Shown one piece after another: positions 14,022 to 33,923 of a stretch of DNA of 36,326 nucleotides. Position 1 is the first letter of the stretch. Each line of letters begins with the position of its first letter. The stretch comes from a virus: IMG/VR virus record IMGVR_UViG_3300017783_000080, positions 1-36,326 of that record; one strand, given 5' to 3'. Under the pieces are notes generated by a model that did no database searches, was not told the origin of the DNA, and saw nothing but the letters and a program-made list of their open reading frames with translations. Both the position numbers and the translations under genes were made by a program.

Positions 14022-15154
14022 TATGAATTTTGCTTATTGATTTTTTTGAACCAACTTTTCACAAATTTATGCAAAGGCGTGTTCCCTTTTCCTGCAAGCT
14101 GTTCCATTTTACCCATGTCTTCAGGTGACACGATTCCTTCGCCCCCAGTCATCTCTCCAATCTTAGCTCCATCCTGCATGATTTCAATCGGGTTGTTTTC
14201 ATGCGAAAACTCTCCAGGAGTCTCCCCTCTAAGCAAGGCCCCTTTCATCGCCATGATCATCATTTTTTCCTCGTCGTCAGGGATCATACCTCCTTCAGCC
14301 ATGTTCGGCAACATAAGACCTCTGTTATCTACATCCACGCCAGTGCTTATTTGAGTTGGAGGAGTTATAGTAGCCATTGTGCCTGGAGCGGGGCTAGGAG
14401 CTCCACCACCGAAGTTGCCATACTGAGCACCCAACATGAGAGCATCAGAAACACCCCCTGATATCGCGTCAATAACACCTGTCTGTCCAGCCAGATCAGC
14501 CTGTACACCCATGCTGGCGGCTGAAGCTTCAGCGTCTGTGAGAGCGCCTTGTTGCGCCAGTGCCCCTTCTTTGAGCTGCCTACCAAAGGCAAGGTCTTGC
14601 TGAGCTGCACCAAACTTGTCTCTAGCAACTCGTGATTCTGCTTCACCTATGGTCTGCAAGCCAGCTCTTCTTCTAGCAGACTCATCTGCTGCGATCTTAG
14701 AGAATCTGTCTGCTGAACTCTCGGTTACTTTATTTAAGCCTCCAAGCAAAGCTCTTGCACCCCCAGCTTTAAGTGCGCCAACAGAGGTAGATAGGTCTCT
14801 TTCAGCCTGCTTTCGCTGAAGGTCCGCCATGGGGTCCTCCGCAACAAGACTCCTCAACTCATTGTAACTAGGCGGCAGCCCATACTTAGATCTCTCTGCA
14901 AGAGCGTCTGCGATTGATGAGTCTGCTTGCTTAGCTGCTGCTTGTGCTTGTTTCTCCCTAGCTGCTATTTGCTGCTGAGCAATATCTTGCTGAGCTTCTA
15001 AGGCTTTCTTTTGTTTGCGACCCTTGAAAAAATTTCCAAGAGCTGAAGCCCCTGCGCTCAAAGCCATCAAGGTAACAGGTTCAATAAAGTAAGTTACGTT
15101 AGGGTCTGGAGCTTGAAAGATCACATCCCATATTACCTTCAGTACTTCTAGCAT
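14021..15154 (-). CDS. Probable internal/ejection virion protein, Ala/Gln-rich coiled coil (377 aa)
   Basis: A hydrophobic start (about residues 1-40, including LMALSAGASALGNFF) is followed by a long Ala/Gln/Lys-rich helical region (about 45-230) that would form coiled coils. Then come a Gly/Pro linker and a C-terminal part with GAKIGEMTGGEGIVSPEDM near residues 330-350. This composition and the size are like the small internal head proteins of podoviruses (T7 gp14-like in general character), but no sequence family is claimed. ATG 15154 is chosen because a TATATTTG box lies only four bases upstream; an alternative ATG at residue 30 would lack the N-terminal hydrophobic stretch. It is coupled to the next gene by TAATG. 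Confidence 0.6.
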   Translation of the reverse strand: MLEVLKVIWDVIFQAPDPNVTYFIEPVTLMALSAGASALGNFFKGRKQKKALEAQQDIAQQQIAAREKQAQAAAKQADSSIADALAERSKYGLPPSYNELRSLVAEDPMADLQRKQAERDLSTSVGALKAGGARALLGGLNKVTESSADRFSKIAADESARRRAGLQTIGEAESRVARDKFGAAQQDLAFGRQLKEGALAQQGALTDAEASAASMGVQADLAGQTGVIDAISGGVSDALMLGAQYGNFGGGAPSPAPGTMATITPPTQISTGVDVDNRGLMLPNMAEGGMIPDDEEKMMIMAMKGALLRGETPGEFSHENNPIEIMQDGAKIGEMTGGEGIVSPEDMGKMEQLAGKGNTPLHKFVKSWFKKINKQNS

Positions 15155-15158
15155 TTTA

Positions 15159-15166
15159 CAAATATA
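15159..15166 (-). promoter_or_regulatory. TATATTTG box 4 nt before an ATG
   Basis: This exact TATATTTG lies in the 13-base gap between the 1665-aa tail protein gene and the 377-aa gene, four bases before ATG 15154. If it is a -7 element, transcription would begin at or near the start codon, giving a leaderless mRNA. No TTG is present 19-25 bases upstream. Confidence 0.5.
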
Positions 15167-15167
15167 G

Positions 15168-18100
15168 TTATTGCGCGACTAATGAGTCGTTAAGAGGTGA
15201 GTTGACAAAATGAGCGTTGATAGCGTATAGTTCTTCGCCACTTAGTACAATGTCACTAGATGTTGCAGCCGAAGGCGTAAAAGACAGTTCTGCTACAGCG
15301 TACCTATCTCTGATACGCTCAGAAGTCAACCCTAAGTTAGGATTGGCTATAAAAAGCTTTGTGCCTACTGGAGGGTTGGTCAAGACGTTGGAGTTCGGTG
15401 TCCCATCCCAAGCTGGCTCAAACACAACGGTACTGGTTGACCTGTCGACTGAAGTTAGCTTTGGTGTCTGCCCATATTCAGCCAGATTTGAATCAGCACT
15501 TGCCATGTCTCCGCTGGAATTGATATAGTACAGTTCGTATCCCAAGGGTAGTGACATACCACGTAGGCTGTTTTCAAGGACAATCGTGCTTTTGTCGTTT
15601 CCGAATCCCTGATCTCCTGAGTTTACAGCTGAAGCTATGGTTCCTAACGGGATATATCTTGAGTCACTGGTGTGTCTATTGAGGTCAACGCCGCCTGCGG
15701 TGGCTATTGTACTTAGGTATGATTTTATGCCCCCTATACTGCCGTAGAAGGCGTCTTCTCTTTCTGAGAAAGAAATAGAATCAGATTCCCTGCCGTCACT
15801 GTCCATAACTTTTGCAGACCAAGCTTCTTTAGCTTCAACTGATATTGCTTGGAATGTTTTAACCATAGAAGGATTACCGTTGAATACTACTCTTATCTTA
15901 GAAGGAGATGGGCTGCCTGAGCTGTTGAAAAATCTGTTTGACAGAGTTGTGTCCTTAAACTCGTGAATAATAGTGTTGTTGCTAGACTTGAAAGCAAAGA
16001 ATTTGTCTTTTAGGGCTGCGTATCTATCAGCGTAGAAGGTGTAGTTTCCTTGCCAGAAACCTCCCTTCTCGTCATAACCGAGAGTGTACCCGCCAAAACC
16101 TCCTTGAGGAGATAGAGTCACATAGTAAATGTTGTCCTCTGGATCGAATCCACTCACAATGGTTTTGCCAGTTGCTGTTTCCCATGCAGCTATTTGCGCC
16201 TCAACTGTAGAGCTAATGTCTTTGTTTGAAATAACCTCAAGACCCTGATTGTTTACCTTCAATACCGCTCTCCTCTCTGAGTCTACAAAATACGTTACTC
16301 CATCTCTTATCAGTACAGATTCTGGATTGCTAGTTCCAAAGTCACCTGAGTAAGACACTAAGTTGTTGATAAGTTTAGACGAGATAGTCACAACGCCAGC
16401 CTGAGTTCCTGTCTCCAGGACGTCTTTGTTTATACCTAGTCTAGAAACTTTATTTTCCTGTATGGCCAGAAGCTGATCTGAGCTCATGCCCAAGAAGTTA
16501 CAGGCTCCATGCTCTGACGGCAGATCAAAGAAGTTTGCTTGAGATGGAACGAATGCAGACAGAGCAAGAACAGATGTATCATCAGCATAGGGCTGACTAA
16601 ACGTAATCCCGTTGTATCTGTTTATAGTGGCTGCTCTTTCAAAAACTGCATGCACTCTGCCCTGGCTCCATGCTTTTTCAGTTATGAACTCTCCAGGAGC
16701 TTCGTTCTCAAGAACTATTCCTACATCTACCCAGTCAGAAAGACTGCCTACTGAAGTCGTATATGTAGCTTCAGCTCTATCTGGGCCTTTGCAGGAGACC
16801 TCTCTCATTTGGACATCGCCCTGAGACAGCTGCAGAGCCGAGCCATGCTTAGGGGAGGACGAAGACAGAGTTATTCTATCTCCAATCTCATAGTAAACAG
16901 GAGTGTCTGAAGTTTTCTTTGGGGTGAGTATCTCAACAACAGTTTCTCTGCCCCAGTAGTTGTTAGCTGATGGAGCGACATTGTCTGGGTAAGTGAGGGT
17001 CGTGTTTCCATTCAAGACACTGCTTAAGTCAAGTTGGGGTCTAGCATCCCAAAACTTTGAAATGCTAAACCAATCAAATCCATCGTACTTGAGGCCCCCT
17101 TCTTTTATATCTCCAGAAACCAGGGTGATGGTGATGTTAAGGCTACTTTGAGTGGTGCAAGGGAATGTGATAACATCTCCTGCCAGCAATCCCGAGCCTT
17201 CTCCATTAACTACAATAGCATCTAAAGAAGATCCATTGCTGCTTACAGTGATACCATCAAAAGACGGTGCTCCGACATCTGCTGTCACGTTTACTCCACC
17301 TCTAGTCACCGTGACGGTGTCAGATGTATCTCCGCTAGTGTTAACGGTTCCGCTTGCAACAGCTGAGCTGGAAAGAATGCTTTCATTCGCTTCAAGCTCC
17401 CCCACTCTTACCTGAGAGTTCCCATCAACACGAGGCGCTCTCAGTACAAGAAACTTTCCTTGCGTTTGTGGCGTAGACTGATCCCACTGAATAGGGTTCC
17501 CTACACCGTCTTCAAAACCAGTGCCAGATTGAGTTAGCGTTTCTACGCCGACTACTTCAAACTCTATAATGCTACCATCGTTAGCCCTAGGGTAAACTCT
17601 TGCGGCTCCAGTGGGTCTATACGATATAACTCTAAGAATATCACCCTTAGTAAAAGAGTAATCTCTTGGAGATCCAGTGCTGTCTTTGTGTTGCTCTATG
17701 GTGTTCAATGAAACAAATATCCTGTGATCGTTTTGAAGAAGCCTGTTGCTTGCTTGTGGGCCAGCGGTTGCGGGGAAGCCGCCCGTGCCATAGTCTTTAT
17801 TCTCCATAGGCATATAAGCCCCTCCAGTAACGTAACTAAACACGTTTGAGTACTGAGATCCACCGTATACGACTTGATAGCTATGTGCAAATGATGGGAT
17901 AGAGCTATCTAGCCCACTACCTACGGTAAGAGATATTGAAGAACCTCCTTTATCGTCTGTCCTTATTGAGCCCCTTTCAGCTGGGTGCTTGACGTAGGCA
18001 GAGCCTATCTTATTTACAAAGCTAGATCTCCCCCACTTGTCATAGTATACGACTCCAAAATCATGAGAAGAGCCTTGCTTAAAGCTGAACCCAGCCGCGT

Positions 18101-20165
18101 TAGAAAAAGCCTCTACCTCTGAGTTAACGATGTAGTCTGCAGCATCGCCAGCCACATCGTGTCTCTGTCTAATTACTAGAGTGCCAGGAGTTTCAAAAAC
18201 AGTTTGGTCGCTGCTAAGTCCAGAGTTAACGAAAAATGAATTGCCAACCGAGGTGTCAGTAGGTGTAGGCATAGTAGATATAGTTCCAGCGCTTGTCCTG
18301 GAAAGCTTATATATGTAAGGCCTTATCTTGAATATAGCATCGTCTTCCGTGTCTTCTAAACGGAATCTAAAATGTGCTCTGTAATTTGCTGTTCGAGTAA
18401 ATGTGTCACCAACGTCAGCGTTTGTGTCTTTTCCAGCGTTATTGTTGACCTCCACCACCTCCATAACCTGCGCGACGTTTAAAAAGTCAACAGTAATTTC
18501 AGTATTACTTCCGAAGCTCTCTTTCAATCCGTTATATACATCTTGTGCTGACTGCCCCGCTGTCGTAGTAAATACTGCTTCCAGCCTAGGAGTCTTCGAT
18601 GGACTTAAGTTCGTTGAATTAAACTTAGAGTTTACAGAAACTCCTGATTTCATCGTGAAGTTTCCTGAGGCATTTGCCACCTTGAGCGACTCAAAACATT
18701 TATCCGTGGCGCCGCCAGGTGAGGTGCCGCTTGTGTAGTACTCTCCTTTGGTGTCAAACCCGAAAGAGAGCCTAACCTCTGTGCCCTCTGGCAAAATTGT
18801 AGCCCCTAAGGTAGCTTCAGCCCCTGGCCAGTTAAGAGCGTTACCAGAGCCCCCAGTGTCAGCAAGGTTTATGTTTATCTCACCTCTTCTTTTTGCGCCA
18901 TCGCGCAGCGTCGTAGTTGCATAAGCGCTAGTGATCGGAAAACTAACAACATTGTCTTTGCTTCCTACCAAGTAGCTACCTCCAAAATCTTGGGCTGATC
19001 CGTAATTTACAGCCAGCTCTACCTGAGGAGATACGTCAAAGTTAGGGTAACCCTCGGTGTAGTTAGAGTACATAAGCCTACTCGATGCTATCGTCTGACC
19101 CCTAGCCTTTAGCGGCACGTTATCAAACAGCTTCCCTGTGTCCAAATCAGATACGCTAGGGTAGTATCCATCATTATAGAATCTGTACGTTCCCGTATCT
19201 GCGTTGTACACTTCTTTTTCTATGCTGCTCCCTATCTCTCTGTTTAGATTTGATCTCGGGTCAAACTCGTCGATAACAAAAAACGGATTAGAGTTTTCTG
19301 ATCTAGCGAGCAGCCTCACTTTACTTACATCGAAGTAGGTGTCCGAGTCTGTTCCGTTATCCCAGGGAATGCCTACCAAACAAACGTTGCCATTGAGGGC
19401 TGAGGCTGTAATTTCGCTATCGCCTTTGCTTACGATATATGGAGATACTGCCAGCTCCGAGTAAGATGAAATCCCAGACTCTTCCCCGTCTTTGTACAAG
19501 AACTGACAGGCAAACTGAAACGTTTCGCTTTTGAAGTTGTTAGTGGACAAGTCAGAATCGTTGGAAAAAGAAAACGTAGGTATCTTTTTTGGCACCCCCT
19601 TCATGGTTAGAAGAGCATAGTCTAAGTCAATGGGCGTCGTGGTAACTGGGTTGCCATCATCATCTACTACAGCGGTAGGTTCGTACTCCCCAGCAAGCGC
19701 CCTGTCTATGTTTATTTTCCTAGGAGGATTATTGTTGTCTGTGAAGTACATCACAGTCTGAACGTTTCCATCCTGATTGAAAGCTTTGTTTATGAGGTCA
19801 GCTTTGACTGGGTAAATCTCATTAAAAGCCAAATACGCATCCTTAAAAACAGTTTGCCAAGCACCGCCATCTATAGACATAACGATCCTTTGGTCTGTCG
19901 TATCAGCCGTGTCATAAACAAAAGCGTACACTCTGCCTCGCTGCTCGTCACTTATGCTCCCAACAATCTTCCAAGTAGCTGCGGGGGTGTCTTCTCCAGA
20001 TGCCTTATCTATCTCACTGGTGCCCTTCATCGTCTTAAGGATAGCGGCACTTCCATCGGCCCTCTCAGAGACCGTAACGTTTTCAGCAAGGATCATCTCG
20101 TTCGGAAGAACGAGGCGCTCATCTTTATCTGAAACAAACTTTGCAGGTTTAATCTTTTGAATCAT
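15168..20165 (-). CDS. Large beta-rich tail/stabilisation protein (1665 aa)
   Basis: The protein is rich in Ser, Thr, Gly, Asp and Asn with alternating beta-strand patterns and no membrane segments. The N-terminal part (LPNEMILAENVTVSERADGS, then YFTDNNNPPRKINIDRAL near residue 130) resembles a large structural protein common in Bacteroidota phages. The C-terminal third has short motifs such as VTYFVDSERRAVLKV, NIYYVTLSP and GGFWQGNYTFY at regular spacing, typical of a beta-propeller as in P22 gp10-like or tail-tube-B proteins. It directly follows two neck-type genes (ATGA overlap with the upstream one). I infer a tail tube, hub or stabilisation role at the portal vertex. The exact homology is not certain. 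Confidence 0.65.
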   Translation of the reverse strand: MIQKIKPAKFVSDKDERLVLPNEMILAENVTVSERADGSAAILKTMKGTSEIDKASGEDTPAATWKIVGSISDEQRGRVYAFVYDTADTTDQRIVMSIDGGAWQTVFKDAYLAFNEIYPVKADLINKAFNQDGNVQTVMYFTDNNNPPRKINIDRALAGEYEPTAVVDDDGNPVTTTPIDLDYALLTMKGVPKKIPTFSFSNDSDLSTNNFKSETFQFACQFLYKDGEESGISSYSELAVSPYIVSKGDSEITASALNGNVCLVGIPWDNGTDSDTYFDVSKVRLLARSENSNPFFVIDEFDPRSNLNREIGSSIEKEVYNADTGTYRFYNDGYYPSVSDLDTGKLFDNVPLKARGQTIASSRLMYSNYTEGYPNFDVSPQVELAVNYGSAQDFGGSYLVGSKDNVVSFPITSAYATTTLRDGAKRRGEININLADTGGSGNALNWPGAEATLGATILPEGTEVRLSFGFDTKGEYYTSGTSPGGATDKCFESLKVANASGNFTMKSGVSVNSKFNSTNLSPSKTPRLEAVFTTTAGQSAQDVYNGLKESFGSNTEITVDFLNVAQVMEVVEVNNNAGKDTNADVGDTFTRTANYRAHFRFRLEDTEDDAIFKIRPYIYKLSRTSAGTISTMPTPTDTSVGNSFFVNSGLSSDQTVFETPGTLVIRQRHDVAGDAADYIVNSEVEAFSNAAGFSFKQGSSHDFGVVYYDKWGRSSFVNKIGSAYVKHPAERGSIRTDDKGGSSISLTVGSGLDSSIPSFAHSYQVVYGGSQYSNVFSYVTGGAYMPMENKDYGTGGFPATAGPQASNRLLQNDHRIFVSLNTIEQHKDSTGSPRDYSFTKGDILRVISYRPTGAARVYPRANDGSIIEFEVVGVETLTQSGTGFEDGVGNPIQWDQSTPQTQGKFLVLRAPRVDGNSQVRVGELEANESILSSSAVASGTVNTSGDTSDTVTVTRGGVNVTADVGAPSFDGITVSSNGSSLDAIVVNGEGSGLLAGDVITFPCTTQSSLNITITLVSGDIKEGGLKYDGFDWFSISKFWDARPQLDLSSVLNGNTTLTYPDNVAPSANNYWGRETVVEILTPKKTSDTPVYYEIGDRITLSSSSPKHGSALQLSQGDVQMREVSCKGPDRAEATYTTSVGSLSDWVDVGIVLENEAPGEFITEKAWSQGRVHAVFERAATINRYNGITFSQPYADDTSVLALSAFVPSQANFFDLPSEHGACNFLGMSSDQLLAIQENKVSRLGINKDVLETGTQAGVVTISSKLINNLVSYSGDFGTSNPESVLIRDGVTYFVDSERRAVLKVNNQGLEVISNKDISSTVEAQIAAWETATGKTIVSGFDPEDNIYYVTLSPQGGFGGYTLGYDEKGGFWQGNYTFYADRYAALKDKFFAFKSSNNTIIHEFKDTTLSNRFFNSSGSPSPSKIRVVFNGNPSMVKTFQAISVEAKEAWSAKVMDSDGRESDSISFSEREDAFYGSIGGIKSYLSTIATAGGVDLNRHTSDSRYIPLGTIASAVNSGDQGFGNDKSTIVLENSLRGMSLPLGYELYYINSSGDMASADSNLAEYGQTPKLTSVDRSTSTVVFEPAWDGTPNSNVLTNPPVGTKLFIANPNLGLTSERIRDRYAVAELSFTPSAATSSDIVLSGEELYAINAHFVNSPLNDSLVAQ

Positions 20166-20980
20166 CCCTTAGGTGCTTGCTTGTAATTCTTTCTGATTGT
20201 TCTCAAAAGCTCTTCTTTGGTGAAGGACTTCATGCGAGCGTTAGCCTTTCTTCTTTCGTTGTAGTATTCAGCTCTGGCGCGAGCCTTTTCGTTGGCTGGA
20301 ACGGCGGCTTTTCTTTCGATGATCTTGTAGTACATGTATGCCATCAACGCCTCTTCTGCGTAAGCATGAACTTGCGGGTTAGATGAGCGAGCTTCGTCTG
20401 CTACATATTCGATCACTACTTCACCGACGTCCGTGTTGCTTTTTATCTCTATCCTATTTTGATCGAGGTTCATTCTAAATTCACCCTGATACCTGCCACC
20501 TCCATGCCCGTAAAGCTGTCCAGCAGAGTTGCTGTACACATAGTTTCTAAAGATGTACGATCCGAAGCCATCGTCTGTGGTGCCGCCAGTGTTTCCGCTC
20601 GTAGCGCCTTTGGCGTCCTCTCTATCAAGTAGTCCGTCTCCGTCGGCGTCATAGTTGACATTGTTGACGTCTGAGTATTTTTGAGAGTAGTTTATATTTT
20701 TGTTTTCTCCAAGCACATAAACCAATCCATCTCCACCTACAATACCAACCTTGCTCCAGTCAACAAAATCGTCTGGAAGATCCACTGTGTTGTTTGTAGA
20801 ATTAACAGGAAGCTTCAGTGACTTGATTACTTTGAGTAGATCAAAGCCAAGCTCTCTAACTCCTCTGAGTGCAAAGTTTCTAACAGCCGAATCGCCTACG
20901 TGAGCACCGAAGTCGTTGCCATCCAAGCTAAGCATGAAGTCATTTATGACCTGTTGAAGTGGTACGTAATTTCTAGCCAT
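20162..20980 (-). CDS. Neck/tail-tube connector protein with a calcium-binding-like loop (272 aa)
   Basis: The start (VPLQQVINDFMLSLDGNDFG, then a helix with ALRGVRELGFD) and the later LPVNSTNNTVDLPDDFVDWSKVG region match my memory of a protein widespread in flavobacterial phages, placed beside the head-tail joint. A loop DADGDGLLDRED (residues 111-122) has the DxDxDG spacing of EF-hand or thrombospondin-type calcium sites, followed by a Gly/Thr-rich linker. The C-terminus is helical and strongly basic (NERRKANARMKSF, RKNYKQAPKG). It overlaps the gene before (TAATG) and the gene after (ATGA). It is probably a ring or tail-tubular protein. The function is inferred from position and character. 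Confidence 0.65.
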   Translation of the reverse strand: MARNYVPLQQVINDFMLSLDGNDFGAHVGDSAVRNFALRGVRELGFDLLKVIKSLKLPVNSTNNTVDLPDDFVDWSKVGIVGGDGLVYVLGENKNINYSQKYSDVNNVNYDADGDGLLDREDAKGATSGNTGGTTDDGFGSYIFRNYVYSNSAGQLYGHGGGRYQGEFRMNLDQNRIEIKSNTDVGEVVIEYVADEARSSNPQVHAYAEEALMAYMYYKIIERKAAVPANEKARARAEYYNERRKANARMKSFTKEELLRTIRKNYKQAPKG

Positions 20981-21729
20981 TAGAAGGATTGTTCAGATTT
21001 TTTCTCAGTTTGCTCCTTTTGAGCGAACGCCTGCACGTTAGTGTCTCTAAGGTTCAGACCTATAAGGTCCGCTATCTCATAGACCAATTCCATAGTGTAA
21101 TGCTCTGGCAACTCAAAGTCTCTACTGTTGGTAGAGTTGTAAGTGTCATTGTTTGTGTTCGTTGCAAACGTCGGGGGATCGTCTGATCTTACAGGGGTTG
21201 CAGCCGTAGTGAAGCTCTGAGGGATCTTGTAGTATCTAACCTTGATCTTCTGAATGGACTCAGGGAACACCTCGATGTCACCAGTAACCAAAGCAACTGG
21301 GAATGATTCACTAGGCGCATTCAAAGTGCTGCCTAGAATTCTTTCGATCTTCTCTTCGTCGTACACAATCTCCACAGGAGTTCTGGTTGTCTGACCAAGA
21401 AGCAAGTCACCCGATGTGGATATAGAAATGACCCTAGATAAGTCTGAAGGTCGAGCGTACACACCACTGCTTTTAGGTATGTCTGATGACTTTGCAAGTA
21501 CTGCGAGGTCTTCTAGGATCTGCTTGAACTTGGACTTGTCTCTGCCCTGGCCGAAACCAGCGCGTTCTAACCTGCTCCCATCTTTGAGCTGATCGAAGAG
21601 TCTGTTATAGATTCTGAGCTGAGCTACCTGTGCAAACCTGTTGAATTCGTCTACATTGACAAACCCTCTTTGGTCCTTATTCACTAGGTTTTTCAGTGTT
21701 CCATAAACTACGTTTACACTTACTGGCAT
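20980..21729 (-). CDS. Head-tail joining/neck structural protein (249 aa)
   Basis: The N-terminus (VNVVYGTLKNLVNKDQRGFV, then VDEFNRFAQVAQLRIYNRLF) resembles a conserved virion protein of Bacteroidota phages in which an N-terminal helical bundle precedes a beta domain. The remainder alternates strands (VRYYKIPQSF) and ends in a charged helix. The start is set at ATG 21729. A longer frame opens with TTG at 21744, but that extension runs through the TATATTTG box at 21734-21741 and the terminator T-tract, so it is rejected. It begins the neck-tail block after a terminator and is coupled to the next gene by TAATG. It is probably a connector or adaptor on the portal. Confidence in the exact role is moderate. 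Confidence 0.6.
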   Translation of the reverse strand: MPVSVNVVYGTLKNLVNKDQRGFVNVDEFNRFAQVAQLRIYNRLFDQLKDGSRLERAGFGQGRDKSKFKQILEDLAVLAKSSDIPKSSGVYARPSDLSRVISISTSGDLLLGQTTRTPVEIVYDEEKIERILGSTLNAPSESFPVALVTGDIEVFPESIQKIKVRYYKIPQSFTTAATPVRSDDPPTFATNTNNDTYNSTNSRDFELPEHYTMELVYEIADLIGLNLRDTNVQAFAQKEQTEKKSEQSF

Positions 21730-21733
21730 AAGG

Positions 21734-21741
21734 CAAATATA
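21734..21741 (-). promoter_or_regulatory. TATATTTG box 4 nt before an ATG, abutting a terminator
   Basis: Exact TATATTTG four bases before ATG 21729. It begins directly after the T-tract of the upstream terminator, so the usual -33 position falls inside the terminator hairpin. Nothing like TTG is found there. Confidence 0.55.
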
Positions 21742-21776
21742 CAAAAAGAAAAAGCTCCCTATAAGGGAGCCTTTCC
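21742..21776 (-). terminator. Rho-independent terminator after the 267-aa gene
   Basis: On the minus strand GCTCCC (21765-21770) pairs with GGGAGC (21754-21759) over a 5-base loop. The flanking AAAG can pair further with the first T residues, and a TTTTTCTTTTT tract follows. It separates the capsid-side block from the neck-tail block. Confidence 0.85.
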
Positions 21777-21793
21777 TAGGAGGTTGTATGTAG

Positions 21794-22597: not shown

Positions 22598-22623
22598 TGT
22601 AATAGAATTAAATTAAAAAGAAG

Positions 22624-22655: not shown

Positions 22656-22670
22656 AGTTACCGATTTAGA

Positions 22671-23009: not shown

Positions 23010-23030
23010 AATTCAAAGATTATGAAGTTA

Positions 23031-24522: not shown

Positions 24523-25578
24523 TTACCTGCCAAGCGCGGCTCGAAGCTGTGCTGCCAGGGAACTTTCTCCTGGTTGGGCGCTTCCTTGATTTGGACTTTG
24601 GGCGCTGATATTTGCTGCTTGGTTCACGATTCCTCGCTGGCCGTCTGACGTGCCTTGCTTGTAGACTGACTGTATAATCGTTTCGATATTGTCAACCACA
24701 GTGCGGTGCATGTTCAGCATATCATAATCCCAACTTCCATCCTCACGCACGTAAGGATCAAAGTACTCGTCAAGGCGAGTGTTCTTCTCACTAAGTTGAC
24801 CCTTGTATTCATTCGTCAATCCAAAGGTGAATGAGTTACCATTCCCCAAATCGAACTCTACACCATCTAGGGCATTGAGATCTTTTTGCATATTAGAAAT
24901 CCACTGGTCATCAAAGGGAGAAAAGTCTTCAGCACTTTCTGTTGCGACAGGAGCCTTGTATGTTTCTCGAACAGACAAGATCTTCTCTCTTGCAGATTGA
25001 GCATCCAACTTCAGTTGCAGCGCTGAAAGTTTCACCTCCTCTTCTGTATGCAGATTCGGATCGAGCTTGTACTTGCTAGATAGAAGCGTATCTAATTCAT
25101 CCTGACTCAGGCCTTCATAATCCCCAACCATTTGGATTCTAACTGCTGTCATGTCATCCATTTCGGACGCATCAAGCTGTTGGTATCTGAACCAATCTTG
25201 GGGGTCACGGCCTGTCTCTTGGACAAACTTAGCGATAGCTTCTACACGCTCGTCAAGCACGCTTTCTTGCTGCTGAGGAGTCAAATCATCGAATGAGTTG
25301 AACTCTCGACCAAGCTTTTCGCTTAGGTATGAGAGCACTTCTGCGTCGACATCAATAGGCTCCTGCGTTTGTGTATTCTGCTGTGTATTTTCCGTATTGT
25401 CAATAACCTCCTCAGCAGGCGCCGTTGCTTCCTGCTGGTCTGCCTCACGAGCTGCATCTATGTCTATGACATCTGGCGGAGTGAACGAATCAGGCTCTGC
25501 AGCGACGTCAATGTTTTGGACTTGCTCATCAGACAAAAACTCCACAGAGGGAGTTTCGTTAACTTCTTGATTTTCCAT
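24523..25578 (-). CDS. Capsid scaffolding protein
   Basis: This 351-aa, strongly acidic protein has a low-complexity N-terminal third (Glu, Asp, Gln, Thr rich, about residues 1-75). Helical segments follow (for example LSYLSEKLGREFNSFDDL; ALQLKLDAQSAREKIL), and the C-terminal tail ends in a short helix (LAAQLRAALGR). This acidic, helical, disordered character and the place directly before the capsid gene are typical of phage scaffolds, which direct capsid assembly and then leave the head. A TATATTTG box lies 15 bases before ATG 25578 in a 31-base gap, so scaffold and capsid may be transcribed as their own unit. No protease domain is seen. Confidence 0.8.
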   Translation of the reverse strand: MENQEVNETPSVEFLSDEQVQNIDVAAEPDSFTPPDVIDIDAAREADQQEATAPAEEVIDNTENTQQNTQTQEPIDVDAEVLSYLSEKLGREFNSFDDLTPQQQESVLDERVEAIAKFVQETGRDPQDWFRYQQLDASEMDDMTAVRIQMVGDYEGLSQDELDTLLSSKYKLDPNLHTEEEVKLSALQLKLDAQSAREKILSVRETYKAPVATESAEDFSPFDDQWISNMQKDLNALDGVEFDLGNGNSFTFGLTNEYKGQLSEKNTRLDEYFDPYVREDGSWDYDMLNMHRTVVDNIETIIQSVYKQGTSDGQRGIVNQAANISAQSPNQGSAQPGESSLAAQLRAALGR

Positions 25579-25593
25579 GAATTAAATTTTATG

Positions 25594-25601
25594 CAAATAT
25601 A
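25594..25601 (-). promoter_or_regulatory. TATATTTG box upstream of scaffold-capsid unit
   Basis: Exact TATATTTG 15 bases before the scaffold ATG. A TTG lies 25 bases upstream inside the preceding gene, slightly beyond the usual -33 spacing. This is the best candidate for the promoter that drives scaffold and capsid expression. Confidence 0.55.
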
Positions 25602-25609
25602 TAACGAAA

Positions 25610-26650: not shown

Positions 26651-26653
26651 GGT

Positions 26654-27151
26654 TTACTCTATATCGAGGATAAGTGTGAAGTCGTCTGTTGCGGTGGTCG
26701 TCACGGCAGTCTTAGTGATTCCAAATACGTGAAAGCCTGTTGGATTGGGGTATTCAGCACCCTTCAGGGACGTAGAAAGAATGAGGTCTACATTTGATTT
26801 TGTAGACACGTAAGTTCCTCCGAGAGCGCCAGTATTCCCGTCGGTGACCTCGTCTAGGGTGAGGATGCCGCAAATTTGATCGCTGATAAGTTTGGGCCTA
26901 AGGGCAAGCCCTCCAGTAGCGATGGGGTCGCCGATGGAGACGGTGGCTAACGTTCCATCACCCTTCTCTGTAAACACAAGATCTACAGATGGGCACTTGT
27001 CTCCTTTTGAAATTAACGACGCAGAAATAATTCTTACATCACCTTCAATACGAGAAGCTGCATTCTTAACCTCTGTAGGCAAAAAGATGACATCCTCCGC
27101 AACGTGTGCAGAAGCAGTAGTTGTTAATGGTATGGTTATTTTTCTACGCAT
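26654..27151 (-). CDS. Decoration-like virion protein, copy A of a paralogous pair (165 aa)
   Basis: A beta-rich 165-aa protein collinear with the following gene over most of its length (shared blocks SRIEGD/SRLGG, SVDLVF/EMDLIF, YVSTKSNVDLIL/FVSSKLNVDLLL). Identity is low, so the duplication is old. It starts a short string of four coupled or nearly adjacent genes (A copy, B copy, 61-aa gene, basic DUF5872-like gene) and has a TACATTTG box 13 bases before its ATG. Its role as head or fibre surface protein is inferred from position. Confidence 0.65.
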   Translation of the reverse strand: MRRKITIPLTTTASAHVAEDVIFLPTEVKNAASRIEGDVRIISASLISKGDKCPSVDLVFTEKGDGTLATVSIGDPIATGGLALRPKLISDQICGILTLDEVTDGNTGALGGTYVSTKSNVDLILSTSLKGAEYPNPTGFHVFGITKTAVTTTATDDFTLILDIE

Positions 27152-27164
27152 GTTTTGATTTCTG

Positions 27165-27172
27165 CAAATGTA
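27165..27172 (-). promoter_or_regulatory. TACATTTG box upstream of the paralogous pair
   Basis: TACATTTG fits TAnnTTTG and lies 13 bases before ATG 27151, in the 25-base gap after the 100-aa gene. No TTG occurs at the -33 spacing. Confidence 0.4.
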
Positions 27173-27176
27173 CTGA

Positions 27177-27479
27177 TTACCACTTTACTTTGTTTGCCCA
27201 GTACGCTGCACTCATCTTACCCTTGGCAATGTTTCTAGCATGGCGAGCCTTGAAGCTCGCACGCTTCTTACGTCTGGCTGGGGTTGGGTTTGACTCTGTC
27301 ACAGTGTCCGCACCTTTCTCTCCAAATCTTATGAGCTTAATCTTATTGCCTTCCTTAGCGAGAACCATGTGAGACTTCTTGGGGTGCTTAGGTGTAGACT
27401 TAGGCTTATTGACACCCTTCAGTCCATACTTCTTCAGCATGTTCTTGATCCTCTTTGAGATAGCGCTTGGACTGCTCAT
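27177..27479 (-). CDS. Small basic conserved phage protein (100 aa)
   Basis: A Lys/Arg-rich 100-aa protein: a basic N-terminus, then HMVLAKEGNKIKLIRFGEKG, then RRKKRASFKARHARNIAKGK and a C-terminal MSAAYWANKVKW. I recall this 'MVLAKEG..KLIRFG ... SFKARH..NI.KGK.SAAYWA..VKW' pattern from many phages, always of unknown function. Charge suggests nucleic-acid binding. The start is ATG 27479, not the upstream TTG at 27500, because the longer form would run through the TATATTTG box four bases upstream and into the terminator tract. Confidence 0.65.
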   Translation of the reverse strand: MSSPSAISKRIKNMLKKYGLKGVNKPKSTPKHPKKSHMVLAKEGNKIKLIRFGEKGADTVTESNPTPARRKKRASFKARHARNIAKGKMSAAYWANKVKW

Positions 27480-27483
27480 AATG

Positions 27484-27491
27484 CAAATATA
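27484..27491 (-). promoter_or_regulatory. TATATTTG box 4 nt before an ATG, abutting a terminator
   Basis: Exact TATATTTG four bases before ATG 27479, directly after the T-rich tract of the upstream terminator. This is the same arrangement as at 21734-21741. The usual -33 position lies in the terminator hairpin region. Confidence 0.55.
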
Positions 27492-27521
27492 CGAAAACAA
27501 AGAAAGGGGCTCTAGGCCCCT
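27492..27521 (-). terminator. Rho-independent terminator after the 88-aa gene
   Basis: On the minus strand AGGGGC (27516-27521) pairs with GCCCCT (27505-27510) around CTAGA, followed by TTCTTTGTTTT. It separates the fibre-side genes from the basic protein gene. Confidence 0.8.
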
Positions 27522-27543
27522 GTCTTCATGTATAGTAAGGTGA

Positions 27544-27810
27544 TTACGCTACGACTGTTGCTGTTGGGAATGCAGCAGCCATGATGTCGTCGACCAAGTC
27601 GTTGACGTTGTTCTCAGTAGTGGTTGTGTAGGTCACATTTGTGTAGTGCTTAAACACACCGTTGTTTTCTGTGATCTCCACCTGCAAGTGGACAGCGTTC
27701 TCAAGAACCTGGCAGTTGATGGGCGTGATCTTTGGGTTAAGCAAAGTGAAGTCACTGAAGTCGTAAGAACCTGAGATGGTCCATTGTTTTGATGCGAATG
27801 CGTATGCCAT
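27544..27810 (-). CDS. Small uncharacterised protein (88 aa)
   Basis: An 88-aa beta-rich protein (SGSYDFSDFTLL, VHLQVEITENNGVFKHYTNVTYTTTTENN) with a short helix and an Ala/Thr/Val C-terminus. It has no membrane segment. It has no recognised family. It stands alone between the fibre group and a terminator, with a leader that is very A/T-rich (a weak TATATTCG lies 25 bases before the ATG). It may be a minor virion or fibre-associated protein, inferred only from its neighbours. Confidence 0.55.
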   Translation of the reverse strand: MAYAFASKQWTISGSYDFSDFTLLNPKITPINCQVLENAVHLQVEITENNGVFKHYTNVTYTTTTENNVNDLVDDIMAAAFPTATVVA

Positions 27811-27835
27811 TTTTGAATTTTAATGTTTAACGGTG

Positions 27836-27843
27836 CGAATATA
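27836..27843 (-). promoter_or_regulatory. Degenerate TATATTCG box
   Basis: One base differs from TATATTTG. It lies in the 40-base gap before the 88-aa gene, 25 bases from its ATG. It is a weak candidate only. Confidence 0.25.
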
Positions 27844-27850
27844 CGAATTG

Positions 27851-28162
27851 TCAGGAAACCAAGAATACTATAGAGTAGTGGCTTCCACCGAAAGCATCAT
27901 TGATCTGCTCCACCGTTCCGTTGACATCGACGTCACCAGAAAAAGTGCTCACAACAAACTTTACATTAGATGCAGAATTTACGCTAGACCTCGTGGAGCC
28001 AGAGTCTATGGCTGTAGCTGTAATAGCAGATAGTTGACCAGCACTTAGGACATCTTCGAAAGAATCTCCAGGATTACCAGTGTGCCCAATACCAAAGACA
28101 GGATCTTTCATTGGCGTAGCCACGCCGTCTAGGTACAGTGTTATTTGATTTGACTGAATCAT
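27851..28162 (-). CDS. Small beta-rich fibre-associated protein (103 aa)
   Basis: A 103-aa protein beginning IQSNQITLYLDGVATPM, with further short strands (VKFVVSTFSGDVDVNG; SIVFLVS at the end) and Ser/Thr-rich loops. It has no Cys, signal peptide or membrane helix. The start overlaps the fibre stop as ATGA, so it is translated with the fibre gene and may be a fibre cap, chaperone or receptor-side accessory. No family is recognised and this role is inferred from coupling. Confidence 0.55.
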   Translation of the reverse strand: MIQSNQITLYLDGVATPMKDPVFGIGHTGNPGDSFEDVLSAGQLSAITATAIDSGSTRSSVNSASNVKFVVSTFSGDVDVNGTVEQINDAFGGSHYSIVFLVS

Positions 28163-31068
28163 GAAACCGTAATGCTTAAATCTTCAACTCTAAAATCAAT
28201 ACTACCCGCAGCAAAAAATGTTACGAAAAGTCCCAAAACCCACTGACTTCCAGCCTGACTCAAACACGCTGTGGGTGTGGTCTGAGTCAAGGTGATGGTC
28301 TGCTCACTTGGACTGCTAAAGGCAAACTGAGTAGATGGAGTAAATTGTCCTGAAACTGGAGAGAGCGTTTGAATTGCAATGGTAGTGTTTGTAGTCACCT
28401 TCACCGTAATAGAGTACGTAGCAGAATCAGTGGAGGACAAACCATCAAGTGTAAGTGCTCCATTGGACCCATAAGTACCGTGGCTGATACCCTGACCAAC
28501 AAACCCGCTAATCATATCTGTTGATGATGACGTAGCTGTTGCTGATGGGAACTGATAATAGAACGTAGCCGTCTTCGTCACATCTGTGGAGTACCCAGAG
28601 TATTCGTATGTACCACCTCTAGACGCGCCTGCACCGAATGACAGATTACCACTACCGTCCGTCTTTAAGACATCGCCTGAACTTCCATCAGAATCTGGGA
28701 GCACAAGGGTTAAGTCTGAGCTTACGGTTGTGGGGCACCGAAGTGTAACTCCATTGGAGCTGTCTGCGTCCTTGAGGGAGATAAGGCCACCAATCGAACC
28801 GTTACCATTGACTATGGTTCTTCCCTTTGCCTGTATGTATCCTTGAGGGAAGATCTTAGCCACCTCAGTAGACGAGTTGTCAAAAACGAGGGAGTTGCCC
28901 CCCATCTCTATTGTTCTTTCAGCAGAGAGCGTCTGATCTGAGTTACCAATGTTTGTGTCAGTATCAGTAGTCTGATCAACAAAAGTCAGAACTCCACTTC
29001 CATCCGTCTGAAGTACCTGGTTAGGGCTGCCGTCTGCAGCAGGGAAAGTGTATGGGTTTGCGCCGTCGTCAACTTTAATTTGACCAACGACATGAAGCTT
29101 TTCGCCTGGAGCGTTGGTTCCTATGCCTACACTATAAGGTGATGTAGCCGCCGCATCAGTTATGCGAACCACTTCTGTTTCGGTATCATTAGAGTTGCTA
29201 GAGTTCCCTCCTATCTTAAATACAATGTCCTGACCAAGGCCAGTACTACCAAACCCTCTAGACTGAATGATAGATGAAGTGGTTTCCGCAGTAACAAATA
29301 TCTCATTCCCGTTGGTGCCCAGGCTGTTCTGCTGTTGAACCTTAAGGCCTCCTATGTTTGTGGCGTGGTTAGATCTTTCAATATTGATCAACCCAGCAGT
29401 TCCAGAGGCGAAGGCAACATACCTCTGCTTACCAGTGTAACCACTTGTATCTTCGAATCTAATACCAGCTGAAGTACCCCCAGTTGTAGTGTCAACAACA
29501 CCAGTTCCAGTGAACTCTATTGTAGGGCCGCCAGAACTTCTAAGTATAAGTCTGCCTGTGTCCACTCCATTCCTACCTATGCTCGCCTCGTCCTTTACAT
29601 GAAGGGTGCTCATAGGAGACGACTCTTCAATACCTACACGTCTTGTGCTACTACCGAAGTCTCCGTAAATAAGCGGAGTAGTGCTGGAGCTGTTTTCGAT
29701 GTACAGCTTATTTGATTCAGTGGTAAGCGTTGACCCTGCTTTATAGCCAATAAGAACATTACTACCTCCAGTTGTAAGAGCAGTTCCAGCTTGGTGTCCA
29801 ACAGCCACGTTATCAGCACCCGTCGTAAGTTGCTGCAAAGCAAACGCACCCACCGCTACAGTCTGATCAAAGTTAGAATCTGAAGCTCCAAAACCAGCTT
29901 GATTTCCTATTAGGACATTGTCTATGTCACTCACATGCTCACCAGCTCTAAAGCCAATACTTACGTTACCTGATGTGCCAATTCCATAGATACCAGCTCT
30001 ATACCCGAGAGATACGTCGTTTGATCTACTGCCCTGCCTGGCAGCGGCAAAGCCGAGTGCAGTGTTGTAATTACCTGTTGCGTTAGTGAACAGGGCGTCG
30101 GCACCCACTGCTGTGTTGTTGCCTCCCGTAGTCAGAGAGCTGAGAGCTGTATAGCCAACAGCAACGGTCTTTGAAGCAGTAGTAAGTGACCCCCAGGAAG
30201 TCCCAATAAGCACATTGTCGCTCCCATCATTAAGTCTAATCTTACCAGCAATATGCAACTTCTCCGTAGGAGATGTGGTGCCAATCCCGACTCTGCTGTT
30301 AGCAATGTCAATATAGGCTGTGTCTGTAGCTGTAGCTACGCCACTTGAATTACCAGCCCAAATGTATCCTTCTTGAATGTTCGGGATGTCGTTGGATCGA
30401 CCGATAGCCATAACAACAATCTCTCCGCTATTCTGCTGACGTCTACCTACCTTACCTACATTCTGAATGAGGTTTGTTCCAGTAGGCTTGACATTGGTGA
30501 GACCACCTCCAGCCTTGACGTACAGCACATCGCCTTCTTGAAAATCGTTGGGAGATACTTGTGTATTTACGTCATCAAGACTACCCATCGCTGTGGCCTG
30601 ACCATTATCGTTCTGAGAATAGTCAGCAAAAGCCAATCCAATAGACGGCATTTTAGATGAATCAGATGCGTCAGCCTTGGCAACGGCGATTCTGTTTTGA
30701 CCGTTGTTAAAGCCAGTGATGTACAGCGGATCGCCCTTAGATACTGCCTCATCAAATCTAACCTCAAGAGTAATTCTATCTGCATAATCCCACTCTGTGT
30801 CGTAGTCAGTTCCGCTTACCTTCCTTAGAAGCTGAAACTGTGACCCACCTGCGGGCACCCCTTGTCCATCAACACCGTCAGCACCGTCAGCACCGTCAGC
30901 GCCAGCTGGTCCCTGAGGGCCTGTAGCTCCTTGAGGACCTGTCTCTCCTTGAAGGCCAGCAGTGACTTCTACTGGGCTGACTTCTGGAGAAGTTACTTTG
31001 ATTGCAGGAGTGGTCTCCACAGAGACCTTGATAACCCCTGGGCCGCTATTTACAACCTTTACTGACAT
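28159..31068 (-). CDS. Collagen-like receptor-binding/structural fibre (969 aa)
   Basis: After about 37 residues there is a collagen-like stretch of 11 Gly-X-Y triplets (residues 38-70, ending GADGADGVDGQG), which should form a trimeric stalk. Residues about 295-450 are a YadA-like repeat region, with units of the type NTAVGxxAL, VSLGYRAG, VSIGFRAG, VLIGYKAG, as in left-handed beta-rolls. A second repeated element, VGIGTxxPxxKLHVxG, occurs three times (one degenerate). The C-terminal 130 residues are a Ser/Thr-rich beta domain, presumably the tip. No S74 self-cleaving chaperone is evident. It lies between the portal and the scaffold genes, so it could be a head or tail fibre. The start overlaps the 125-aa gene stop (TAATG). 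Confidence 0.82.
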   Translation of the reverse strand: MSVKVVNSGPGVIKVSVETTPAIKVTSPEVSPVEVTAGLQGETGPQGATGPQGPAGADGADGADGVDGQGVPAGGSQFQLLRKVSGTDYDTEWDYADRITLEVRFDEAVSKGDPLYITGFNNGQNRIAVAKADASDSSKMPSIGLAFADYSQNDNGQATAMGSLDDVNTQVSPNDFQEGDVLYVKAGGGLTNVKPTGTNLIQNVGKVGRRQQNSGEIVVMAIGRSNDIPNIQEGYIWAGNSSGVATATDTAYIDIANSRVGIGTTSPTEKLHIAGKIRLNDGSDNVLIGTSWGSLTTASKTVAVGYTALSSLTTGGNNTAVGADALFTNATGNYNTALGFAAARQGSRSNDVSLGYRAGIYGIGTSGNVSIGFRAGEHVSDIDNVLIGNQAGFGASDSNFDQTVAVGAFALQQLTTGADNVAVGHQAGTALTTGGSNVLIGYKAGSTLTTESNKLYIENSSSTTPLIYGDFGSSTRRVGIEESSPMSTLHVKDEASIGRNGVDTGRLILRSSGGPTIEFTGTGVVDTTTGGTSAGIRFEDTSGYTGKQRYVAFASGTAGLINIERSNHATNIGGLKVQQQNSLGTNGNEIFVTAETTSSIIQSRGFGSTGLGQDIVFKIGGNSSNSNDTETEVVRITDAAATSPYSVGIGTNAPGEKLHVVGQIKVDDGANPYTFPAADGSPNQVLQTDGSGVLTFVDQTTDTDTNIGNSDQTLSAERTIEMGGNSLVFDNSSTEVAKIFPQGYIQAKGRTIVNGNGSIGGLISLKDADSSNGVTLRCPTTVSSDLTLVLPDSDGSSGDVLKTDGSGNLSFGAGASRGGTYEYSGYSTDVTKTATFYYQFPSATATSSSTDMISGFVGQGISHGTYGSNGALTLDGLSSTDSATYSITVKVTTNTTIAIQTLSPVSGQFTPSTQFAFSSPSEQTITLTQTTPTACLSQAGSQWVLGLFVTFFAAGSIDFRVEDLSITVS
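30873..30899 (-). repeat. Three perfect 9-bp repeats coding the collagen stretch
   Basis: CACCGTCAG occurs three times in a row on the plus strand, coding Gly-Ala-Asp on the minus strand. Perfect copies suggest recent slippage expansion of the collagen-like stalk, which can change stalk length in steps of one triplet. Confidence 0.93.
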
Positions 31069-31445
31069 TAGGCTCCGATATCGTCGTTTACTTTAAACGT
31101 TCCGTAGAGGAGCGTCTTCACATCGCCTGCTGTAAATCTAACTCCCTCAGCGTCGGTGATTTGCAAGTCATATACGTACAAACCAGGAGACAAGCCTCCA
31201 ATTTGAGCATTGGTGGAATCGATCTTAAGCTTAGAGTTGGTGGCATCACCAGTAGAGCTGGTGTAGATGATAGTCAGAGATTCAGGACTCGCTGTATCTG
31301 ACGTTGCAATCTTCATTTCAAATGCGTTGCTGTTTGTGCCGTGCTGAGGCATAGCCACTCCAAACTCCAAGTTGAGCTCAAACGTATCACCCTTCTTGGC
31401 AATGATGTCGAGTCTGTTCGATATATCTACGCTAACTGTAGCCAT
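31068..31445 (-). CDS. Small beta-sandwich protein, possible fibre adaptor (125 aa)
   Basis: A beta-rich 125-aa protein whose spacing GDTFELNLEFG ... FEMKIATS ... GLSPGLYVYDLQITD ... LLYGTFKV resembles the widespread N-terminal beta-sandwich of phage baseplate/fibre adaptor proteins (BppU-type, from memory). It lies between portal and fibre and overlaps both (TAATG at each end), so it is made with the fibre. I infer an adaptor that links the fibre to the virion. No domain can be confirmed without a profile search. Confidence 0.6.
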   Translation of the reverse strand: MATVSVDISNRLDIIAKKGDTFELNLEFGVAMPQHGTNSNAFEMKIATSDTASPESLTIIYTSSTGDATNSKLKIDSTNAQIGGLSPGLYVYDLQITDAEGVRFTAGDVKTLLYGTFKVNDDIGA

Positions 31446-33910
31446 TATTGTTGAATGATGTTTTTAACGATTTCGTCCACGGATTGCTCTCCGCCAGTCT
31501 GAGTCTCTGTGCCCTCTGTGAGTTCAGATCGGTCTCCCTTTCTCTGAGAGATAAGCTTGCTTTGTTCGACAGCCTGTTTCTCAACTCGGTCGTCTTTACG
31601 ATCCTCCTTAAGGACTTCGAGTTTCTCTTTGAACTCTTGATCTTCAGTCTTAAATCCGAGAGTAGCCTGAGCCCTGATGAGTTCAATCTCTTTGCGGTAC
31701 TGATGCTTGACTTGCTCCATTTGAATTTCTAGCTGAGCTTTCATCTGCATCTTTTGAGCCTCTATTTGAGACTCCATTTGCATCTCTTGCTGTCTAGCTT
31801 GAGAAGAAGCAGCCGCTGACTGCTGCTGAATCTGAGCTTGTTGCTGAGAGTTCTGCATAGCAATCTGCTGGTTCCTAGCGATCCGCTTAGACCTTCTTAG
31901 TATCAGCAACCGCTCCGCTTGGTTCACATCCTTCAACTGCCTGATTGCAATAGCGTCCTCGATGTCCAGTTCTTTTTGAGCCAGAGCAACCTGAATGTTT
32001 TGCTCCAGATACTGCTTCTCTGTGTCCTCCATCTCCTTGACTATCCTTACGCCAAAGTTGTACATCGGAAGGTTTTCAAACGAAGCAAGAACCTCCATGT
32101 TAGCTTCACCAACCGCGTTGGTATACGCTTTGTATATGACACTCTCTGGTGGAAGGACCTGCAAGCACTTGACGATGTCGGAACATACTTTCTTGAAAAG
32201 AACCATGGAAGCATGAGTCATGTCGTAGATAGCGTTGTTGCCAGCCGCGATAGCTTGCTGCCTAACTCCGACCAAAGCATCTCCCTTCGGAGAGCTACCA
32301 TCCATAGCCTCGTTGATACCTGTAGCATCTCTGATGAGCCGTAAGTAGTGGTTGTACAGCCCAACAAACTCATTTATGTTTCGAACTGCATTACCAATCT
32401 CTCGGATCGGCGGGTTTTGAAAACCACCCTCTGGGTTCTTGCTTCTATAGTAGAATACGCCAGTCTGTTCGTAGATGTCGTGAAGCTCTAGTGGCTGAAG
32501 CTCACCTCCTTTACCGAGCTGGACATTCTCAAGTCCTTCGACGTCAATGATGATACCGTCTGGTTTAGCCTTGGCGACAGCCTGTTGAATCTTCAAGTGA
32601 GTCAGCTGAAGCTGGTCTGCGAAACCAATACAGCTATTAACCATAGACTTAGGAATCATATCCTGCATATTTGTTGCAACAGCAGAGTATGAAAGGTTAG
32701 TCTTTGAAAGATCGTGAAGATTCTTAGGCATGTTTGTCTTCAACCCGTAGCTGAACAGCTTATCACAGCCCATAACATAGAAGCCTCCGTATGCAGTCTG
32801 ATTGTGCATCTCGTGAACATCTCTCTTGTATACGGAATTCGAAGGAGCCTTGTAGCTTTCTCCTTTGAAGTAAAACCCTGTATTACCGTACTGACTCTCT
32901 TTCTCCTCGAATACCATCTTGTCCACAGACAGAAACTCAAACTCCAGTACATCAACCATGTACTCATCATATCCGTAATCAGATCTGTTAGATGATGAAT
33001 CATAAGATGACTGGCTCATTCCACCAGTACGATTGCCAGACTTAGATCTTACCTTTCCAGCGATGTACTTGTAATCTTCTTCTGTAAGTTGATCTCCAGC
33101 CAAACGCTTTAGCTCATGGATGGGCATCCTTCGGACGTGACCAGCATATAGCATGTCTCCAAACGAAGGGTCTTGCACGTCGCTGTGGACGAAATCAATA
33201 GGGTCTACATAGTGCGTGGTAATGCCGTAGTTAGGGTCGTTGCTTCTTTTTACAACAGCCATACCTAGGTTGACAATGTCATTGACAGATCTGCGGTAAA
33301 CAGAATCGTGGAAGTCATTCCACTGAAGCGTCATGTCGGTAGCAATCTGAGCTGCTATCTCAGAAGAAGACTTTATGTTGTTCCCCATGAATATCTCAGC
33401 CTCCTCAAGCGAGTCGGGAAGAGCATCCACGTTAGCTACGTCTACATTAGTCTTTTCTTTTATCTCAGCCAAATCTTTCTTGGCCTTGATGAGAGCCTCC
33501 ATTTTCTGCCTTTCTCTATCTTTTTCAGAAGAGGATAAGGGGTCGACAGCTTCCAGGTTTGGGTACGGTTCTCGTGATAGAATCTTGTTCACTACAATTC
33601 TAGCGAACTTAGGAAGGATAGGCACTGGAGTAAAGTCCAGGTTGAGGAAGCTGCCGTCGCCGTTGTTGGGGTCCATACTCGTCAAGAGTTGACGGTAGAT
33701 CGCGGTGTCTTGGGTGCCGTTTGCGTAGGATCGGTTTTTCAGGAAAGTATCTCTTCTTCTTCTGAATAGAGAGTTTTCTCTGTCGATAGACCCCCACTGA
33801 CTCTCAATAGCTTTCGCATATTGTAGGCCATACTTAGCGTTTTCTTTGACCTCTCTGGTTTCAAGAGGACTCGGAAATCCTTTCTTAGATGTATTGTTGT
33901 CCCCGTACAT
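31445..33910 (-). CDS. Portal protein
   Basis: This 821-aa protein would form the dodecameric DNA channel at one capsid vertex. The N-terminal part is helical with an Arg cluster (RRRR at 50-53, all AGA codons). The middle carries the mixed alpha/beta portal body (YVDPIDFVHSDVQDPSFGD near residue 230-250; AMDGSSPKGDALVGVRQQA near 540). The C-terminal 190 residues are a long Gln/Glu/Lys-rich coiled coil (MQNSQQQAQIQQQSAAASS onwards) as in the helical barrel of large portals. It follows the terminase directly and has a TATATTTG box five bases before its ATG, suggesting its own, nearly leaderless transcript. It resembles portals of flavobacterial and crAss-like phages from memory. Confidence 0.85.
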   Translation of the reverse strand: MYGDNNTSKKGFPSPLETREVKENAKYGLQYAKAIESQWGSIDRENSLFRRRRDTFLKNRSYANGTQDTAIYRQLLTSMDPNNGDGSFLNLDFTPVPILPKFARIVVNKILSREPYPNLEAVDPLSSSEKDRERQKMEALIKAKKDLAEIKEKTNVDVANVDALPDSLEEAEIFMGNNIKSSSEIAAQIATDMTLQWNDFHDSVYRRSVNDIVNLGMAVVKRSNDPNYGITTHYVDPIDFVHSDVQDPSFGDMLYAGHVRRMPIHELKRLAGDQLTEEDYKYIAGKVRSKSGNRTGGMSQSSYDSSSNRSDYGYDEYMVDVLEFEFLSVDKMVFEEKESQYGNTGFYFKGESYKAPSNSVYKRDVHEMHNQTAYGGFYVMGCDKLFSYGLKTNMPKNLHDLSKTNLSYSAVATNMQDMIPKSMVNSCIGFADQLQLTHLKIQQAVAKAKPDGIIIDVEGLENVQLGKGGELQPLELHDIYEQTGVFYYRSKNPEGGFQNPPIREIGNAVRNINEFVGLYNHYLRLIRDATGINEAMDGSSPKGDALVGVRQQAIAAGNNAIYDMTHASMVLFKKVCSDIVKCLQVLPPESVIYKAYTNAVGEANMEVLASFENLPMYNFGVRIVKEMEDTEKQYLEQNIQVALAQKELDIEDAIAIRQLKDVNQAERLLILRRSKRIARNQQIAMQNSQQQAQIQQQSAAASSQARQQEMQMESQIEAQKMQMKAQLEIQMEQVKHQYRKEIELIRAQATLGFKTEDQEFKEKLEVLKEDRKDDRVEKQAVEQSKLISQRKGDRSELTEGTETQTGGEQSVDEIVKNIIQQ

Positions 33911-33915
33911 TATCG

Positions 33916-33923
33916 CAAATATA
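33916..33923 (-). promoter_or_regulatory. TATATTTG box 5 nt before the portal ATG
   Basis: Exact TATATTTG in the 19-base gap between terminase and portal, five bases before ATG 33910. No TTG is found at the -33 spacing inside the terminase end. Confidence 0.5.

Follow-up and report, generated by a model that had tools for sequence, protein, structure and literature searches.

The window, by which we mean the whole 36,326-nt stretch of viral DNA analysed here (IMG/VR record IMGVR_UViG_3300017783_000080, positions 1 to 36,326), carries a phage structural arm on its minus strand, with genes for the terminase (33930–36056), the portal (31445–33910) and virion proteins, and a giant ORF of 3052 amino acids (aa). 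Ribonucleotide reductase genes (nrdB/nrdA) lie at the window end (1–2435, plus strand), convergent with the late arm; their best match in the genome collection, from Pelagibacteraceae, is only 39% identical. The window portal is approximately 30% identical to those of Cellulophaga phi38:1 and the Flavobacterium elemo phages, and 58–100% identical to those of 57 uncultured viral contigs. Over 5.7 kb, contig L007 matches the window exactly, and it extends the sequence upstream. By sequence comparison, the phages bearing the box described below are an uncultured marine clade, distant kin of Cellulophaga phi38:1 and the Flavobacterium elemo phages, and their hosts are probably Flavobacteriia, as the motif and the catalogued relatives suggest. 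Host-promoter reference values were taken from the literature; the route to host DNA through NrdA gave only two Pelagibacteraceae loci.

An earlier note on this DNA had described five exact copies of TATATTTG on the minus strand, located 4, 4, 15, 4 and 5 nt before start codons, and had read them as possible leaderless late promoters. An exact-word search of both strands recovered these five copies and no other on the minus strand, a recount returned the same distances, and the gene layout places all five in intergenic gaps. The search also identified a plus-strand copy and near-copies in other gaps, which were absent from that note. A sigma-70 promoter scan is ill-suited to Bacteroidota. The features of the window are as follows.

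33916–33923, minus strand: late box TATATTTG, 5 nt 5′ of the ATG of the portal gene (31445–33910); relatives also have a box before the portal gene
27836–27843, minus strand: near-box TATATTCG, 25 nt 5′ of ATG 27810
27505–27521, minus strand: intrinsic terminator, a hairpin with a T-tract, directly upstream of the box at 27484
27484–27491, minus strand: late box TATATTTG, 4 nt 5′ of ATG 27479 of a 100-aa gene, immediately after the terminator
27165–27172, minus strand: variant box TACATTTG, 13 nt 5′ of ATG 27151
25594–25601, minus strand: late box TATATTTG, 15 nt 5′ of the ATG of a 351-aa gene (24523–25578) that itself precedes the MCP-like gene; predicted leader of about 10–11 nt
23014–23021, minus strand: near-box AATCTTTG, 4 nt 5′ of ATG 23009, preceded by a T-tract hairpin
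21747–21777, minus strand: intrinsic terminator, a hairpin with a T-tract, directly upstream of the box at 21734
21734–21741, minus strand: late box TATATTTG, 4 nt 5′ of ATG 21729 of a 249-aa virion protein gene, immediately after the terminator
15159–15166, minus strand: late box TATATTTG, 4 nt 5′ of the ATG of a 377-aa gene (14021–15154), just past the stop codon of a 1665-aa gene
12628–12635, minus strand: variant box TATCTTTG, 20 nt 5′ of the ATG of the 3052-aa giant ORF
2440–2447, plus strand: sixth copy of TATATTTG, 4 nt 5′ of a conserved candidate small RNA
2452–2521, plus strand: candidate phage small RNA, with a 5′ hairpin (GTTaCACAG...CTGTGgAAC) followed by a hairpin and U-tract terminator

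Gene starts were taken as the first ATG in each frame. The program-listed ORFs with TTG starts at 21744 and 27500 run across two of the boxes and are mechanical entries; homologues of the 249-aa gene start at, or no more than 3 residues from, the ATG following the box. Since several boxes come directly after a terminator, one transcription unit would end and the next begin within about 30 nt.

On both strands of the window together, TATATTTG occurs six times against 0.72 expected, and none of 100 dinucleotide shuffles reached six copies. The looser pattern TANNTTTG was only mildly enriched (31 versus 19), which places the signal in the exact word. In a seven-contig set (the window plus the six longest contigs), the late-strand gaps held 42 copies of TATATTTG, whereas 168 permutations of its letters averaged 1.6. 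A box was found within 40 nt of 41 of the 271 late genes but of only 1 of the 123 early genes. We further compiled a hold-out set of 13 long contigs, all with a portal gene, which were found through the small RNA rather than through the box; counts come from 12 of them, read fully or almost fully. On their late strand, 75 copies were intergenic and 15 genic, and on the other strand 6 were intergenic and none genic. These strand counts and the late-versus-early gene counts agree in restricting the box to the late, structural arm. The gaps are AT-rich, which would favor an origin by chance or base composition, but such an origin is refuted by the permuted-word counts and by the recurrence of a fixed spacing in the hold-out set. 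The hold-out contigs come from this clade as well, and deduplication at a 60% identity cut strips near-identical upstream regions while shared ancestry remains.

In the uncultured relatives, the late strand carries the box in the gap 5′ of the portal gene as well as ahead of further structural genes, and this comparison establishes the conservation, strand and position of the box. The earlier note had proposed surveying relatives for the box and its distance to start codons, and had regarded an equal frequency inside genes as speaking against its reading. In this survey the box recurs across the clade, its distances cluster, and the intergenic excess given above is clear. The Bacteroidota sigma-ABfr (sigma-A) promoter combines TTTG at −33 with TAHHTTTG at −7 (PMC6847099; PMC7366714; PMC9723704), and the −7 element is present upstream of the phage genes in the form of exact TATATTTG copies in the gaps. 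The proposed role of the box as a −7-type promoter element of structural genes is supported by gap enrichment, late-strand bias and the match to the Bacteroidota element, and we consider it very likely, from sequence, that the TATATTTG boxes are late promoters. Before some late genes there is just a variant box or none at all, and among late boxes TATCTTTG ranks second in frequency (12 of 63). The 249-aa gene retains its box in six uncultured relatives and in four catalogued phages (phi38:1, elemo, Panino and MW202828). The orthologs in five uncultured relatives have the box at 4 nt; in G003, phi38:1, elemo, Panino and MW202828, TATATTTG or TATCTTTG stands at a longer gap, and the N-termini align within three residues. 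Across the lineages of this gene, as aligned here, the box is retained and the leader differs. As the general late box of the four catalogued phages, exact TATATTTG was rejected; following terminators, they often have TAT[A/C]TTTG, and the leaders there are longer.

The distance between box and ATG falls into two classes. Among 43 deduplicated late boxes, 22 lie 4–5 nt from the ATG, none at 6–13 nt and 21 at 14–30 nt; in the hold-out set (49 late boxes), the corresponding counts are 24 at 3–5 nt, none at 6–13 nt and 25 at 14–30 nt. In F. johnsoniae, the −7 element is separated from the transcription start by 4–5 nt (PMC6847099), so that boxes 4–5 nt from an ATG would direct initiation at the A of the AUG. 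In 21 of the 25 leadered hold-out promoters, the fifth base 3′ of the box is A, and the same position is the A of the ATG in the leaderless ones. From these two observations and from the 5′ end of the small RNA, 4 nt past its box, we infer that late transcripts start 4–5 nt past the box and that, in the 3–5-nt class, transcription likely starts at the AUG. The claim that transcription would begin at the ATG behind the closely spaced boxes is thereby supported; of the five boxes of the window it would hold for the four at 4–5 nt, whereas for the box at 25594, at 15 nt, the expected leader is about 10 nt long. In the hold-out set, 4 of 11 early-arm boxes also lie 4–5 nt before an ATG, and the leaderless layout may therefore extend beyond late genes.

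The sixth box of the window and its counterparts lie before an RNA rather than an ORF. A pattern of the 5′ hairpin alone (GTTACACRG-loop-CTGTGGAACTTCGC), from which the box was left out, matched 33 viral contigs, with loci at window 2452–2521 (plus strand), L121:5198, L117:2911 and others among L092–L124. In all 20 nonredundant copies a TAT[A/C]TT box lies upstream, at 4 nt in 19 and at 5 nt in 1; a T-tract hairpin comes after almost every copy. In the hold-out set, each of the six off-strand copies of TATATTTG stands 4 nt 5′ of the small RNA, the same arrangement as the window copy at 2440. No shuffled sequence folded as well as the window region of the small RNA (z −4.9, fold on 2451–2527), and one A-U pair of the hairpin becomes G-U in 12 of the 20 copies. 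No Rfam family matched at the gathering cut-off, and ARAGORN assigned no name. We regard the small RNA as a new, conserved, terminator-ended candidate. That the box keeps a constant distance to the 5′ end of this RNA, at a place without a start codon, is the strongest argument for a promoter with +1 located 4 nt downstream. It also bears on the proposal that the box is a signal for translation initiation or RNA processing and not a promoter, for which one could cite that half of the copies lie 4–5 nt from an ATG and that Bacteroidota lack Shine-Dalgarno sequences (PMC6847099). We consider this proposal very improbable, because the other half lie 14–30 nt from the ATG, the box occurs 4 nt before the small RNA, boxes come directly after terminators, and the phylum is known to use this box as its −7 element.

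We therefore favor, with a probability of roughly 0.8, the reading that TATATTTG is the core late promoter of this clade, of the Bacteroidota −7 type, with transcription predicted to start 4–5 nt downstream, leaderless in about half of the cases, and also driving the small RNA. In its extended form, T-rich at −5/−4 and then TATATTTGCA, it would be the counterpart of TAHHTTTG. RNA polymerase, most likely that of the host, would start at the purine 4–5 nt past the box. In about half of the promoters this purine would be the A of the start codon, giving a leaderless mRNA; in the remainder it would open a short leader of approximately 10–26 nt. The small phage RNA would be transcribed from +1 by the same element. 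Late expression is predicted.

The second sigma-A element, a TTG some 20 nt 5′ of the −7 box, was not found in late promoters. At a 20-nt spacer, TTG was present in 0 of 36 late boxes compared with 6 of 10 early-arm boxes in the first set (Fisher P 2e-5), and in 0 of 49 compared with 3 of 11 in the hold-out set; pooled over both sets, 9 of 21 early-arm boxes have it. Early-arm boxes also differ from late boxes in their central bases. In place of the TTG, late boxes show T at −4 (70%), T at −5 (53%) and CA after the box; the T-richness 5′ of late boxes is partly due to terminator tails. At the level of sequence, this TTG contrast separates two promoter classes within one genome. The earlier note had taken the missing TTG as a hint of a phage-specific mode of initiation. 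The lack of TTG was confirmed, but as a hint of a special mode it is weak: the −33 motif of F. johnsoniae is itself "much less evident", with stronger AT-rich patches at −18 and −28 (PMC6847099), so that a missing late TTG alone does not prove such a mode.

These boxes may thus be plain host sigma-A promoters, at which the unmodified holoenzyme reads a strong TATATTTG and an AT-rich spacer and lateness results from gene dosage or repression. This is a serious contender, to which we give slightly less than even odds. It agrees with the F. johnsoniae pattern, in which the −18 patch corresponds to the T-rich −5/−4 of the late box, and with the searches for phage polymerase components. Sigma70 region 2 was detected in 0 of 7 contigs at E 10; region 4 gave nothing above the cut-off, with region-4-like HTH matches below it in 4 of 18 contigs; and the contigs searched showed no single-subunit (T7-type) RNA polymerase, an absence that is unproven as the PF00940 search had no positive control. 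With no sigma or phage RNA polymerase gene detected, host polymerase is the default reader. The early-arm boxes of the same genomes, with TTG at exactly 20 nt in 9 of 21 and with other central bases, argue against plain host promoters, as does the presence of a −33 element in B. thetaiotaomicron (PMC7366714).

The early/late split of the −33 element would be explained if a phage factor, for example a MarR-like protein or a displacer of sigma region 4, redirected host polymerase to −33-less late promoters, in the manner of P23-45 gp39. Such a factor would possibly make the −33 contact unnecessary. A 140-aa protein (L007:3666–4088, minus strand) is conserved in 34 loci including L007 and in 11 of the 13 further contigs; the two in which it was not found are fragments. 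Its gene sits within the late arm, where it is read from the early strand, against the direction of the late genes. Its predicted structure (mean pLDDT 76.7) matches MarR-family regulators (best E 1.8e-3), although no Pfam or PHROGs family scored above chance, and we propose this MarR-like winged-helix protein as a candidate late regulator. Because MarR proteins are mostly repressors, nothing ties this one to the box or to polymerase, and it was not found in two contigs, we view redirection by a phage factor as possible but somewhat doubtful. The fuller version, in which such a factor, perhaps the MarR-like protein, lets host polymerase use the −7 box and its T-rich upstream and start at the AUG, yielding leaderless structural mRNAs, appears rather unlikely. 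If true, late structural proteins would be made from leaderless mRNAs in hosts that rarely use them.

Compared with known systems, the late boxes share with Bacteroidota sigma-A promoters the −7 element, the 4–5 nt to the inferred start and an AT-rich −18 patch, but differ in lacking TTG at −33 and in using one dominant exact word, TATATTTG. About half of the late promoters are predicted to be leaderless, whereas leaderless mRNAs make up 5.5% in F. psychrophilum (PMC9723704) and 3.7% of leaders are shorter than 10 nt in B. thetaiotaomicron (PMC7366714). Thermus phage P23-45 gp39 blocks −35-dependent promoters and spares the extended −10 middle and late promoters of the phage (PMC7403470). The present promoters similarly lack an upstream (−35/−33) element and presumably use host polymerase, but have, where those of P23-45 have an extended −10, a Bacteroidota −7 element, and a gp39-like factor is here hypothetical. 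In T4, late promoters have the sequence TATAAATA, read by gp55. Here, too, late genes are marked by one short core element close to the start site; its sequence is different, and no gp55-like sigma was found in the contigs searched. Short motifs at the start site of late genes also occur in phiKZ (TATG) and AR9 (AACA-6N-TA/G, with leaders of 26–491 nt), but these phages encode their own multisubunit polymerases (PMC5312081).

Little is known of transcription control in Bacteroidota phages. With a box whose placement is regular to the single base in at least 18 long contigs, start sites, operons and leaderless translation in these phages become directly testable, and the late boxes offer compact phage-derived promoter parts for Flavobacteriia. 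Since the group lacks Shine-Dalgarno sequences, a large number of predicted leaderless mRNAs would also bear on how its ribosomes locate start codons.

Several further observations concern the same genomes. The early arms of G001–G006 and G014–G025 carry promoters of host type, with TTG exactly 20 nt before TAHHTTTG. The giant 3052-aa ORF (3449–12607, minus strand) has a weak match to L5 gp82 in the middle of the protein as its sole Pfam match; its candidacy as a virion RNA polymerase was rejected, with no PDB relative and no DxDxD motif. A tRNA gene (36259–36326, minus strand), cut by the window end, lies just upstream of the 62-aa gene preceding the terminase, and in the relatives L013, L057 and L012 some late boxes come directly after tRNA genes.
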